Shown: positions 2,605 through 11,934 of the stretch, one piece after another | Layout: each line of letters begins with the position of its first letter | Numbering within the stretch: position 1 is the stretch's first letter | Virus record (IMG/VR): IMGVR_UViG_3300031758_000653 | Coordinates: 1 to 22,000 of that record | DNA from: a virus | Length of the DNA: 22,000 nucleotides | Reading direction: 5' to 3' (one strand) | Notes under the pieces: model-generated | Told to the model about the DNA's origin: nothing | Databases searched by the model: none | Seen by the model: only the letters and a program-made list of their open reading frames with translations | Position numbers and translations under genes: made by a program

Positions 2605-4062
2605 TTATTTATGAATGGCGTTTATAATTTCTTTATGTGATATTCTTTGATTTTCTAATTTTTTAATTTTCGTATATTCATAATGTTCTTTTGCAAATTC
2701 TAAAATCTGTTGTTTATTTCTTTTTGAATTTAAGAAATCTCGAATTGCATTTTTATCAAACATATTTAATCCGTTTGAAACTTGAATAAAATTATCAAGT
2801 GACCAAACAAATTTGGTTGAATTATTGCCTAGATTTTTAGCATCTAAAAACTCGTACTTACATTTTTCCTCAAAATCTCTGACCCATTCAGTTTTATTTT
2901 CAGTCATGTATTTCCAAAAGTCAGAATCAAATCTATTTGTATTATAATGAAGACAAATAAAATCCACGATGACTTTATAAGCATTTAGGTTTATTTCATT
3001 AAATTTTTTTCTATTATATTCCAAGAAGGTTAAATTTGAATTTAAAGAAATAAAATCTTTAATTTGATTTATGATAATGTGAATACCAGTAGACTCTAGC
3101 GGTTCTACAAATCCACTTGAAAGACCAATTGCTAAACAATTTCCAACCCATGCTTGATCATAATATCCAGGTTTATAGTAAATAATTTTGTCTGTTTGCA
3201 ATCTAACTCCAAATTTTTCTAATAGCCAACAATTATATTTTGTTTTTGCTTCTTCATCTGAAGTAAATCTGGAAGAATAAAGATATCCAGTTCCATATCG
3301 ATTTCCAATTGGTATCTGCCATATCCATCCATTATCTGTCGCTTCTGCTAACGTGTAAGATGGCACTTCTTCAAAATCATATGGAATTTGTTGTGGAATT
3401 GCTCTGTCAATTGGCAAATAATCTGTAATGTCATTCCACTTTACCTTTAAGTTTTTAATTAACATAGAGTTAAATCCAGAGGCATCAATATAAAAATCTG
3501 CTTTTACATTTCCACTATTTTTGAAATCTATACTTTCAATTTGATTATTTTCAATATTAATTTTTTCAGCAATATCATCAATAAAATCAATCTCGTTATT
3601 CATCTTTCCAAAAATATAATTTGAAAATTCTTGTGTATCAATGTGCAGCGCATGACTATAATCAAAAGTTTTTTTTGGTAATGTAGATGTTGCTTCATTA
3701 TAAAGTAGACCACCATTATAGCAATCGTTTAGAATAGAATAGATTGCACTTGATTGATCCGACTCCCCCCAAAAAGAAACTTCTTTAAATCCATGAAAAT
3801 ATTCTGTATTGGGAATCCAATTTTTAAAATTTATTCCTAATTTTACACTTACATTTAAGTCTCTAATTAAATCTTCAGTTTTTATTCCCAGAGAATTAAG
3901 GAATAAATGAATAATTGGTGTAGTACTTTCACCAACACCTATATTTTTTCTTTTGGCATCAAAATATAGAGAAACTTGAACTTTATCTCCCCAATATTTT
4001 TTAATCATTGATGCTGCAATCAATCCAGAGGTTCCTGCCCCCAAAACAATAAATTTTTTCAT
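2605..4062 (-). CDS. Flavin-dependent (tryptophan-type) halogenase, VirX1-like
   Basis: This 485-residue protein has the hallmarks of FADH2-dependent halogenases, which turn halide, O2 and reduced flavin into a hypohalous species used on an aromatic substrate. Visible are the GxGxxG FAD site (GAGTSG, residues 8-13), VGEST (43-47), the catalytic lysine in SVKLGINFKNW (Lys74), the diagnostic WxWxIP motif (WIWQIP, 246-251) and the EPLESTG motif (320-326) with the family's Glu-Ser pair at 323-324. Length is normal for the family, so the enzyme looks intact. A cyanophage enzyme of this family, VirX1, has been reported to iodinate many substrates. The gene sits between two fibre-type genes, and a flavin reductase is not visible nearby. 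It starts 11 bases after the 594-aa gene without a promoter motif, so it is probably cotranscribed with it. Substrate and halide are unknown. Confidence 0.93.
   Translation of the reverse strand: MKKFIVLGAGTSGLIAASMIKKYWGDKVQVSLYFDAKRKNIGVGESTTPIIHLFLNSLGIKTEDLIRDLNVSVKLGINFKNWIPNTEYFHGFKEVSFWGESDQSSAIYSILNDCYNGGLLYNEATSTLPKKTFDYSHALHIDTQEFSNYIFGKMNNEIDFIDDIAEKINIENNQIESIDFKNSGNVKADFYIDASGFNSMLIKNLKVKWNDITDYLPIDRAIPQQIPYDFEEVPSYTLAEATDNGWIWQIPIGNRYGTGYLYSSRFTSDEEAKTKYNCWLLEKFGVRLQTDKIIYYKPGYYDQAWVGNCLAIGLSSGFVEPLESTGIHIIINQIKDFISLNSNLTFLEYNRKKFNEINLNAYKVIVDFICLHYNTNRFDSDFWKYMTENKTEWVRDFEEKCKYEFLDAKNLGNNSTKFVWSLDNFIQVSNGLNMFDKNAIRDFLNSKRNKQQILEFAKEHYEYTKIKKLENQRISHKEIINAIHK
2606..2613 (-). promoter_or_regulatory. 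Late-promoter motif CATAAATA
   Basis: Minus-strand CATAAATA matches the NATAAATA late motif and ends 18 bases before the ATG of the 513-aa gene. It is built from the last codons of the halogenase gene (CAT AAA TAA), so the promoter and the upstream stop codon overlap. Confidence 0.55.
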
Positions 4063-11115: not shown

Positions 11116-11123
11116 TATTTAGT
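11116..11123 (-). promoter_or_regulatory. Weak late-promoter-like motif ACTAAATA
   Basis: Minus-strand ACTAAATA differs by one base from NATAAATA. It lies about 30 bases before the ATG of the 1736-aa gene and overlaps the TAA stop of the 101-aa gene, as the better motifs do elsewhere. The mismatch and the longer spacing make this tentative. Confidence 0.25.
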
Positions 11124-11424
11124 TAGTCAAATCTTCCTCATCATACTCATATTCTATCTCTTCTGGCATATCTTCAGGATTTTCTAACTCAACTGGAAAG
11201 AGACAGGGGTGTGCCTCCTCATCAATCAAGTAGAAAGAACTTCTATATAAATCGTCTGGTTCAAATGTGCGATTCTTATCTGCTTCTCTGCACAAATCTT
11301 GATCGTATAAGTGTCCCTCTGGCAACTCATCGAAGGTAAATGGAACAGAGTTGATAAAATACATCTTCACAATCATACTGCCGTCATTGTACCAGCAGTA
11401 TGCAGAATCTATACGATAAGACAT
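11119..11424 (-). CDS. Small acidic protein of unknown function
   Basis: I chose the ATG at 11422-11424, giving 101 residues (MSYRIDSAYCWYNDGSM...). The open frame continues 20 codons further upstream, but that extension would run through the late-promoter motif and into the tRNA-Leu gene and is unlikely to be translated. The C-terminus is very acidic (EEIEYEYDEEDLTN). No membrane segment, signal peptide or known motif is visible, and I do not recognise the family. The gene lies between the tRNA cluster and the giant fibre gene, with a late-promoter motif 20 bases before its start, so it probably belongs to the late transcript. Confidence 0.7.
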   Translation of the reverse strand: MSYRIDSAYCWYNDGSMIVKMYFINSVPFTFDELPEGHLYDQDLCREADKNRTFEPDDLYRSSFYLIDEEAHPCLFPVELENPEDMPEEIEYEYDEEDLTN

Positions 11425-11444
11425 AGGGGTTTTCCCATATCTTA

Positions 11445-11452
11445 TATTTATT
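11445..11452 (-). promoter_or_regulatory. Late-promoter motif AATAAATA
   Basis: Minus-strand AATAAATA, matching the NATAAATA late motif, ends 20 bases before the chosen ATG of the 101-aa gene and starts 5 bases after the 3' end of tRNA-Leu. The spacing equals that of the better fibre-gene motifs and supports the shorter start of the 101-aa protein. Confidence 0.5.
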
Positions 11453-11457
11453 TTTAG

Positions 11458-11739
11458 TAGGAGCGGCGAGACTTGAACTCGCATAGCCGAAGCCGACGGA
11501 TTTTCTTACCACTACGACTTTCGCCGCCTCATAGAGTTTGTGGTCTGGACTATACCTTCACCATATCTTGTGATTTAGGTGCTCCCCGTCTAGTCTCTAC
11601 ACCTTCATCTTTCGATGCTTGGCTCGGTATTGCCATTTTACAGGTTTCACCGAATTTGAGGAGTTACACTCATGAGGTTTCCCAAATGAGGCTCAATTTT
11701 ACATAAGTCCGTTGTGTCTACCAATTCCACCACGCTCCC
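11458..11739 (-). tRNA. tRNA-Leu(UAA) gene, interrupted by a group I intron
   Basis: The exons are 11739-11705 (35 nt) and 11504-11458 (47 nt), 82 nt when joined. The acceptor stem is GGGAGCG with CGCTCCT (one G-U pair), the D stem GTG/CAC and the anticodon stem ACGGA/TCCGT. The spliced anticodon loop is CTTAAAA, so the anticodon is UAA. A long variable arm contains GCTTCGGC, typical of class II tRNA-Leu, and the T arm is GCGAG-TTCAAGT-CTCGC. The discriminator base is A and CCA is not encoded. The tRNA reads UUA and UUG, codons favoured by an AT-rich phage. It lies third in a tRNA cluster, behind its own strong sigma70-type promoter. Confidence 0.93.
11505..11704 (-). ncRNA. Group I intron (IC3-like), 200 nt, in the tRNA-Leu(UAA) anticodon loop
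   Basis: The intron lies after U34, the same site as the tRNA-Leu(UAA) introns of cyanobacteria and plastids. P1 pairs exon GGACTT (11710-11705) with GAGCC (11694-11690), leaving a U-G wobble at the 5' splice site. The last intron base is G (11505), the conserved omega-G. Core pairings visible on the minus strand are P3 CTCC/GGAG (11663-11660, 11585-11582), P4 TTCGGT/ACCGAG (11654-11649, 11628-11623), P6 CATC-GAAA-GATG (11617-11606), P7 GACTA/TAGTC (11595-11591, 11552-11548), P8 CACC/GGTG (11581-11578, 11562-11559) and P9 GCGGC-GAAA-GTCGT (11527-11514). Stretches such as GAGACTAGACGG and ATGGCAA match remembered Azoarcus and Anabaena tRNA introns. No homing endonuclease fits in 200 nt. Confidence 0.93.
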
Positions 11740-11752
11740 GTGATGTGAGACC

Positions 11753-11781
11753 ATTATAACTCAAAGAGTTGTAGTGGTCAA
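11753..11781 (-). promoter_or_regulatory. Sigma70-type promoter for tRNA-Leu (TTGACC-17-TATAAT)
   Basis: On the minus strand, TTGACC (11781-11776) is followed after exactly 17 bases by TATAAT (11758-11753), and the tRNA-Leu 5' end is 13 bases downstream. The -35 box matches 5 of 6 and the -10 box 6 of 6. The promoter lies between the CAU tRNA and tRNA-Leu. It overlaps a 13-base imperfect inverted repeat (11750-11762 and 11766-11778). Confidence 0.7.
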
Positions 11782-11782
11782 G

Positions 11783-11856
11783 TGCAGGTTGTGGGGATCG
11801 AACCCACCTTAGCCGAATTATGAGTTCGGTGCTTTCAACCAGAGAGCTAAACCTGC
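11783..11856 (-). tRNA. tRNA with CAU anticodon (Met, or lysidine-type Ile)
   Basis: The 74-nt cloverleaf is complete: acceptor GCAGGTT/AACCTGC, D stem with three strong pairs, anticodon stem CCGAA/TTCGG with loop CTCATAA (anticodon CAU), and T arm GTGGG-TTCGATC-CCCAC. The discriminator is A and CCA is not encoded. A CAU anticodon can be elongator tRNA-Met or tRNA-Ile2, whose C34 is converted to lysidine to read AUA. The adjacent tRNA-Ile(UAU) already reads AUA, which slightly favours Met. Four bases separate it from tRNA-Ile, so the two are processed from one transcript. Confidence 0.9.
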
Positions 11857-11860
11857 ACGA

Positions 11861-11932
11861 TGGGAACAGCGGGAGTTGAACCCGCGCTAAGCACTTATAA
11901 GGTGCCCGCTCTAACCATTAAGCTATGCTCCC
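11861..11932 (-). tRNA. tRNA-Ile(UAU)
   Basis: The 72-nt cloverleaf has acceptor GGGAGCA/TGTTCCC, D stem GCTT/GAGC, anticodon stem GGCAC/GTGCT with loop CTTATAA (anticodon UAU), and T arm GCGGG-TTCAACT-CCCGC. The discriminator is A and CCA is not encoded. UAU reads the AUA codon, which is rare in many hosts but useful to an AT-rich phage. It is the first tRNA of the cluster and lies directly after the terminator-like hairpin at 11935-11959. Confidence 0.93.
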
Positions 11933-11934
11933 AT

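Follow-up and report, generated by a model that had tools for sequence, protein, structure and literature searches.

Phage protein genes such as td, nrdB and psbA carry introns, and the group I intron of the cyanobacterial tRNA-Leu(UAA) gene has its counterpart in the plastid one (trnL). A gammaproteobacterial tRNA-Leu intron has also been published, and introns of tRNA genes are often treated as inherited with their gene. For the cyanophage psbA intron, Zeng, Bonocora and Shub reportedly described in 2009 a free-standing endonuclease for its site.

The accessible text of a 2014 review states that the phage introns observed all lay in protein genes despite the many tRNA genes of phages (Hausner 2014, PMC3984707), and the intron family described here, carried in phage tRNA genes, stands against that statement. 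In its accessible text, the tRNAscan-SE 2.0 paper describes the program as not meant for the detection of group I introns and does not contain the word phage (PMC8450103), and the huge-phage paper reports tRNAs found with tRNAscan-SE, the word intron being absent from the accessible portion (PMC7162821). The available parts of further papers name no phage tRNA group I intron (PMC11878797, PMC7886860, PMC11835236, PMC7824862, PMC3706429, PMC6293099, PMC10580990, PMC8651126, PMC13096335, PMC1524935, PMC3037559, PMC4177764). Across the literature searched, which took in few subscription papers and no preprints, we found no report contradicting the restriction of phage introns to protein genes and, as the original prediction had supposed, no earlier description of a phage tRNA intron.

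A group I intron interrupts a tRNA-Leu(UAA) gene in a T4-like cyanophage fragment

The window analysed here, a stretch of 22,000 nucleotides (positions 1 to 22,000 of IMG/VR record IMGVR_UViG_3300031758_000653), is a fragment of a T4-like cyanophage: the 10 proteins scanned with PHROGs include a baseplate hub, the tail lysozyme gp5 and tail proteins, in agreement with the phage origin proposed from the sequence alone. Synechococcus phage S-SRM01 is its nearest named genome. A cluster of three tRNA genes lies on the minus strand, tRNA-Ile(UAU), tRNA-Met(CAU) and a split tRNA-Leu(UAA), with the following features:

11859 to 11933, minus strand: tRNA-Ile(UAU), cluster neighbour (ARAGORN, Rfam)
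11782 to 11856, minus strand: tRNA-Met(CAU), cluster neighbour (ARAGORN, Rfam)
11753 to 11781, minus strand: predicted sigma-70-like promoter, TTGACC-17-TATAAT (11/12), ending 13 bases upstream of the tRNA-Leu 5' end
11457 to 11739, minus strand: class II tRNA-Leu(UAA) gene with a group I intron (ARAGORN intron mode, c[11457,11739], (taa)i(36,200))
11705 to 11739, minus strand: 5' exon, 35 nt, ending C32-U33-U34 (sequence and ARAGORN intron mode)
11505 to 11704, minus strand: group I intron, 200 nt (Rfam RF00028, 58.5 bits; 221 bits over 11505-11704 with family model R1, of which this intron is a training member)
11692 to 11694, minus strand: guide GAG, pairing with exon CUU as P1, with the U34-G wobble at 11694 (sequence)
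11669 to 11690, minus strand: P2 hairpin with GAAA loop (double changes in 6 of 7 pairs; 69% of cells paired)
11658 to 11663, minus strand: P3 5' strand, partner 11582-11587 (double changes in 6 of 6 pairs; 100% of cells paired)
11623 to 11654, minus strand: P4 (11649-11654 with 11623-11628) and P5 (covariation alignment, helices 3 and 4)
11602 to 11622, minus strand: P6 and P6a hairpin (covariation alignment, helices 5 and 6)
11591 to 11595, minus strand: P7 5' strand, guanosine-binding helix, partner 11548-11552 (100% paired; last pair A-U, U-A or C-G)
11582 to 11587, minus strand: P3 3' strand (covariation alignment)
11560 to 11580, minus strand: P8 hairpin (covariation alignment, helices 8 and 9)
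11548 to 11552, minus strand: P7 3' strand (covariation alignment)
11508 to 11544, minus strand: P9.0 stem around two P9 hairpins, the second with a GAAA loop (helices 10 to 12)
11505, minus strand: terminal (omega) G, intron G200 (sequence and ARAGORN)
11457 to 11504, minus strand: 3' exon, starting A35-A36, with variable arm, T arm, acceptor 3' strand and A73 (sequence and ARAGORN)

With default settings, which allow no introns, ARAGORN reported only tRNA-Met and tRNA-Ile in the window and missed tRNA-Leu, the very failure anticipated for a scanner without intron handling. Allowing introns added one gene, tRNA-Leu with anticodon taa, in which the 200-nt intron follows base 35 of the gene, that is U34, and intron mode returned no genes from 30 dinucleotide shuffles of the window. 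Once these 200 nt are removed, the exons fold as an 83-nt class II tRNA-Leu(UAA) whose closing pair is G-U. The claims of a complete class II tRNA and of an insertion point behind U34, the one used by cyanobacterial tRNA-Leu introns, thus held; the lower boundary alone, placed at 11458, was off by one and moves to 11457 with the discriminator base. The tRNA would read UUA, the commonest leucine codon in 13 window ORFs (185 of 449). The putative promoter was the best of five sites in an 851-base stretch, where 1.7 are expected. By eye, a TTGACC box with TATAAT, TATTAT or TATTGT occupies the same place in six of the ten relatives at this locus (L226, L201, L140, L195, L229 and L241), and none is evident in L206, L233, L146 and L214.

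Several further observations concern the window. The tRNA-Ile with anticodon UAU (11859-11933, minus strand) adjoins tRNA-Met and has an equivalent in S-SRM01; ATA codons number 89 in the 13 window ORFs. A tryptophan halogenase gene at 2605-4062 (minus strand) lies by the tail genes and is also present in S-SRM01. The start of an ORF at 11119-11484 (minus strand) overlaps the tRNA-Leu 3' exon, and since the proteins of 8 of 11 relatives align only from residue 17-21 onward, the true start is probably downstream.

Covariation supports the fold of the intron

The Rfam group I model (RF00028, Intron_gpI) matched the region at 11714-11528 on the minus strand with 58.5 bits (cut-off 50, E 9.9e-13), with the whole model covered and the 3' end of the match falling 23 nt before the intron end at 11505. 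The longest open stretch on the intron's own strand spans 37 codons, and a 77-aa frame on the opposite strand (11473-11706) is taken as chance; the intron is ORF-less and carries no homing endonuclease gene.

To this we added an alignment of 30 tRNA-Leu introns, 21 from phages (window included) and 9 from bacteria. In the guide, intron G11 and G13 are invariant across these 30 and A12 is present in at least 90%. Over 48 pairs (50 at first, two loop-closing pairs being removed because they were split by gaps), 90.5% of 1,434 cells were paired. Double changes occurred in 36 of the 48 pairs and in 293 cells, against 25.6 pairs and 86.0 cells (sd 9.3) in shuffles, none of 500 being as high, and fell to 33 to 55 cells when the partner strand was slid, although the structure was derived from the window sequence, which biases the comparison in its favour over slid versions, and kinship among the rows can by itself lift counts above those of shuffles. 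The number of pair types per position, four in P3, nevertheless goes beyond what such a bias or kinship would give. The P3/P7 pseudoknot lies within the covarying core, P4, P6 and P8 covary too, and the weakest helices are P2 (69% of cells paired), upper P8 (64%) and one P9 hairpin (77%). All the elements named in the original prediction are present (P1 with its U-G pair, P3, P4, P6, P7, P8, P9 and the omega-G), together with P2, P5 and P9.0. Judged on its sequence, the insert is confirmed as a group I intron by its core, the U-G wobble at the 5' splice site and the terminal G at the 3' one, the Rfam score and the covariation of its helices agreeing on this point. We take its similarity to cyanobacterial introns to suggest subgroup IC3.

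Related introns occur in many phage tRNA genes

An earlier scan pattern (CGGACTT...TTGAGCC) returned at least 120 rows and was exchanged for a 3'-side pattern combining P7-P9 with the 3' exon AAAATCC, which matched 112 contigs in IMG/VR. ARAGORN identified the joined exons as tRNA-Leu(UAA) in 101 of the 112, comprising 24 class I and 77 class II tRNAs. The 102 resolved rows, one of which is mis-solved (L174, with a negative length), contain 48 distinct 5' exon ends and 75 distinct introns, with a median intron length of 200 nt and seven introns above 330 nt. Among the remaining 11 matches, in eight the 3' half of a tRNA follows the intron end, the contig being cut off or the intron ORF-bearing, and three (L179, L194 and L198) are chance. 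Of the two loci kept by a loose filter on rows of the first pattern (L007 and L075), neither is a clear tRNA.

The tRNA-Leu intron is also present in Agrobacterium phage Atu_ph07 and in two huge phages, LR756501 (which LR756503 resembles) and LR756511. The cultured Gordonia phage Daredevil (NC_048021) carries a tRNA-Lys(UUU) gene, absent from its annotation, that a group I intron interrupts after U34 (L126:1372-1610). The LR756501, LR756503 and LR756511 records have no annotation of any kind, and at the Atu_ph07 and Daredevil loci neither tRNA nor intron is annotated. Class I tRNAs with the leucine anticodon UAA occur in S-SRM01 (L122:9313-9385) and at the 24 viral loci (for example L146, L177, L195, L204 and L219), on contigs that are partly cyanophage-like and partly of other viruses. 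In Pelagibacter phage HTVC105P, an uninterrupted 5' part of tRNA-Leu(UAA) lies by the integrase gene, like an attachment site (L469:601-645), and shares 97.6% identity over 41 nt with the intron-bearing gene of L130.

Two further patterns, the core without an exon constraint (at least 120 rows) and a Lys pattern (six contigs), showed by ARAGORN call that tRNA-Lys(UUU) bears such introns as well, and reading by eye gave intron-bearing phage tRNAs for Thr(UGU), Asn(GUU), Arg(UCU), Ile(UAU), Met/fMet(CAU) and perhaps Gln(UUG). Thirteen ARAGORN 'Stop(tta)' calls could be read as ochre suppressors, a reading that we dropped as an artefact of slid candidate junctions; the Glu, Thr, Pro and undetermined calls share this artefact, and all of these calls, when read by eye, give Thr(UGU), Asn(GUU), Lys(UUU), Arg(UCU), Ile(UAU), Met(CAU), Leu(UAA) and probably Gln(UUG). 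Four Lys cases (L398, L417, L424 and L432) fit insertion after U35, two of which (L398 and L424) are readable as Thr too, and among the Met cases L392, L426, L434 and L435 have a clear 3' exon only. No tRNA emerged from 35 of 83 cores, some of which are cut-off tRNAs or introns holding an ORF while others resemble protein-gene inserts. The anticodon loop is the place of insertion in the tRNAs that were read.

Some contigs carry more than one intron: a 281-kb viral contig has three at 3561-5017 of L417, in tRNA-Arg, tRNA-Leu and tRNA-Lys, and viral locus L374 (7970-9163) has two, in separate genes; on each contig the interrupted tRNAs belong to a single cluster. tmRNA matches occur on two viral contigs (L146:3971-4223, cyano_tmRNA; L436:7831-8187, tmRNA). 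The capsid-gene intron of HTVC120P scores 160 bits with R1, a model of the tRNA-Leu introns, by which the family extends to protein genes. KT997847 holds two family introns in or beside pieces of a phage capsid gene (L127:1456-1630 and 2167-2341).

The RF00028 cut-off was reached in only 9 of 20 related sources tested. The sensitivity of this model and the use of tRNA scanners without intron handling are likely reasons why the family was missed. With the tRNA-Leu intron present in 101 of the 112 viral contigs, and others in further phage tRNAs, annotation of phage tRNAs without intron handling misses genes, and phage tRNA counts may be too low.

The same intron resides in unlike tRNA genes at one locus

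Ten loci share the window's neighbouring genes (L140, L146, L195, L201, L206, L214, L226, L229, L233 and L241). In eight of them two small ORFs, the same each time, flank the tRNA, the stretch of L146 having one small ORF only, and nine have the tail fibre gene. Their introns are 92-100% identical to that of the window. L226, a second contig, has the identical intron within a 10,956-nt match with 0 mismatches and 1 gap, and the copy of L201 is 96.5% identical.

The exons tell otherwise. Their identity to the window is 94-100% in four of the ten loci, 74-75% in L140 and L229 (another class II tRNA, with introns about 92% identical) and about 56-62% in L146, L195, L214 and L241 (a class I tRNA, with introns 92-94% identical), while S-SRM01, whose class I tRNA-Leu between the same two small ORFs is intron-free, is 80-85% identical to the exons of these last four and 58% to those of the window, all computed with a fixed 35-nt 5' exon that is one base too long for class I tRNAs. 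Presence and absence are thus seen at one locus, S-SRM01 being intron-free and its relatives intron-bearing with the same neighbours, although the exons differ too. A near-identical intron in unlike exons means that the intron changed genes or that genes changed around the intron, and the occurrence of one intron in unlike tRNA genes at a single locus is good evidence for the movement of this tRNA intron. The original suggestion of a mobile intron is supported for sharing among phages and with several bacterial phyla; the specific sharing with a cyanobacterial host that it also contained is not.

We recognised no endonuclease among the 10 window proteins scanned with PHROGs. HNH-like ORFs do lie inside related phage tRNA-Leu introns (L124, L137, L166, L168, L184 and L191) and inside bacterial ones. 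PHROG 10822 was the best match for all five phage ORFs scanned (L124, L137, L166, L168 and L191) and both bacterial ORFs scanned (L253 and L344), and the Pfam HNH cut-off was passed by L124, L166, L253 and L344 and missed by L137, L168 and L191. S-SRM01 has a free-standing HNH gene, gp048 (L122:9491-9910), between tRNA-Met and tRNA-Ile, with PHROG 2255 as its best match; it gave a match in PHROGs and none to Pfam HNH. In the window, tRNA-Met and tRNA-Ile are 2 bases apart, whereas in S-SRM01 the HNH gene separates them; this difference fits a contest at the tRNA cluster but proves nothing.

The window intron lies outside the main cyanobacterial clade

Contigs of one genome per bacterial species, scanned with the same P7-P9 and AAAATCC pattern, gave at least 119 rows. 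Among the 119 matches listed, 108 are tRNA-Leu(UAA) introns, all with class II exons and 12 of them cyanobacterial, and the non-cyanobacterial ones listed belong to Proteobacteria, Acidobacteriota, Bacteroidota and others; the 11 other listed matches have no resolved tRNA, with L259 and L279 showing none. A sample of 292 genomes from the cyanobacterial phylum contained 84 with an R1 match, including at non-Leu tRNAs, and 102 with an intron-free tRNA-Leu(UAA)-like match (at most two mismatches), many of these last in genomes of 1.5-2.5 Mb. Pairwise identities among 160 distinct introns of 150-330 nt, from 214 resolved rows, place the window intron at 60-66% to 12 introns of cyanobacterial tRNA-Leu genes, 65-78% to 59 phage introns from beyond its cyanophage cluster, up to 96% to other phage introns and 55-77% to 80 other bacterial introns.

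We then built the tree with cyanobacterial tRNA-Leu introns that had been proposed, from 164 of 237 introns over 186 columns, omitting the guide region, dropping same-group rows more than 93% alike and excluding ORF-bearing introns above 330 nt. Eighteen of 20 cyanobacterial tRNA-Leu introns form one clade (100/100) with the window outside it. The other two, L459 (G291) and L466 (G188), are tRNA-Leu(UAA) introns of the cyanobacterial phylum unlike its usual type; they fall in the window's own 54-row set, which held 44 phage, 6 bacterial and 4 cyanobacterial rows (98/97) in the first tree, and lie near phage and acidobacterial introns in one tree, although this placement is not firm and an AU test joining both to the cyanobacterial clade gave no separation (p 0.42). 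Removal of six long rows abolished support for the window's larger set. Holding the window with the cyanobacterial clade was 26 log units worse with all rows (AU p 0.27; 0.268) and 14 log units better without the six long rows (AU p 0.63). Since deep support is lost in the reduced tree, we limit the claim to the position of the window outside the cyanobacterial clade; these sequences do not support a recent origin by capture from the main lineage of cyanobacterial tRNA-Leu introns.

A wider proposal is that phages act as reservoir and vehicle of an anticodon-loop intron family that jumps between isoacceptors and seeded bacterial tRNA-Leu(UAA) introns, perhaps including cyanobacterial and plastid trnL. 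We regard this as speculative and rather unlikely as it stands; if true, the supposedly ancient cyanobacterial and plastid trnL intron was perhaps phage-seeded. The mobility and origin of this textbook intron are now testable by phage crosses.

Proposed mechanism and alternative explanations

We consider it highly probable that the insert is an ORF-less self-splicing group I ribozyme, a nearly neutral passenger from a family that moves from one tRNA anticodon loop to another, and that it came likeliest from another phage and not from the host. A precursor tRNA would be transcribed from the predicted promoter just upstream, and its RNA would fold; an external guanosine would attack behind U34, and U34, once released, would in turn attack after the terminal G200, joining the exons into a functional tRNA-Leu(UAA). 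Self-splicing in the cell is expected here as in other group I introns, and the intron would persist at almost no cost or gain. Spread may proceed by homing, either through an endonuclease acting in trans or through an HNH gene that has meanwhile been lost, and the window copy's likeliest source would be another phage rather than the cyanobacterial host. The evidence in hand comprises the intron's anatomy, its covariation and its variable presence at one syntenic locus, together with near-identical copies in dissimilar exons, the range of tRNAs that the family interrupts and the HNH genes of some kin.

The first option of the original prediction was capture of an intron-bearing tRNA-Leu(UAA) gene from a cyanobacterial host. 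The shared site after U34 and overall architecture would agree with this, the AU tests allow an old sister relation, and the reduced tree is likelier with the window beside the cyanobacterial clade. Even so, we judge it very unlikely: that clade unites 18 of 20 cyanobacterial introns to the exclusion of the window, identity to the 12 reaches only 60-66%, in alignment A1 the three cyanobacterial introns show an extended P5 and different P7 and P9.0 sequences, and 102 of the 292 genomes carry the intron-free match. An equally slim chance attaches to separate entry of the lineage into phages and bacteria by target constraint, without exchange. Because exon bases dictate the guide, the same site could readily be reached independently, and the deep branches of the tree are unstable; yet phage and bacterial introns are similar over their whole length (up to 77%), with shared P9.0 and core sequences, their ORFs have the same best HNH PHROG, and the 164-row tree, unstable in its deep part, needs 15 phage-label changes, at least 10 of them forced by starred branches.

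Improbable, though somewhat less so than either of these, is that the phage keeps the intron for a benefit, for example by hiding the anticodon loop from anticodon nucleases up to the moment of splicing or by tying maturation to GTP or magnesium. The tRNA insertions read fall in the anticodon loop, and in the window's lineage the intron is conserved as well as the exons or better. A selfish element bound to its splice site would give anticodon-loop insertion too, however, the spliced tRNA is exposed again, and S-SRM01 offers an intron-free relative. The slightest probability of all goes to a dead ribozyme in a pseudogene or decaying gene, for which the lack of an ORF and some imperfect peripheral pairs could be cited, but the core pairs, U-G wobble and terminal G are intact, the family covaries strongly, copies are kept (identical in L226, 96.5% in L201), and the exons are intact behind a promoter-like site.

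Comparison with known systems

The cyanobacterial tRNA-Leu(UAA) intron resembles that of the window in its host gene, its site after U34, the elements P2-P9, the two hairpins in the P9.0 stem and, in almost every row, a GAG guide with the U-G wobble; it differs in its P5 extension and its P7 and P9.0 sequences, and the window's intron lies in a phage and outside the 18-intron clade. Chromosomal bacterial tRNA-Leu(UAA) introns share gene, site, length class and often the P9.0 sequence, reach 77% identity, and include two scanned ORFs in the same HNH PHROG, but all 108 among the matches listed have class II exons whereas the viral set includes 24 class I tRNAs. The introns in cyanobacterial and bacterial initiator tRNA (CAU) genes are likewise group I introns of the anticodon loop, inserted after U33 instead of U34, and in the tree four cyanobacterial introns that precede CAU exons are joined by a phage copy of fMet(CAU) type (L374).

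Among phage introns, those of the HTVC120P and KT997847 capsid genes are group I as well, whereas the window's intron interrupts a tRNA. The cyanophage psbA intron is similarly ORF-less and from a T4-like cyanophage, and the spread of either could rest on an endonuclease coded elsewhere; it differs in occupying a protein gene and in that an endonuclease is reported for it, while the 10 window proteins scanned yielded none. By analogy, the free-standing endonuclease of psbA would provide a precedent for the spread of the tRNA-Leu intron in trans.
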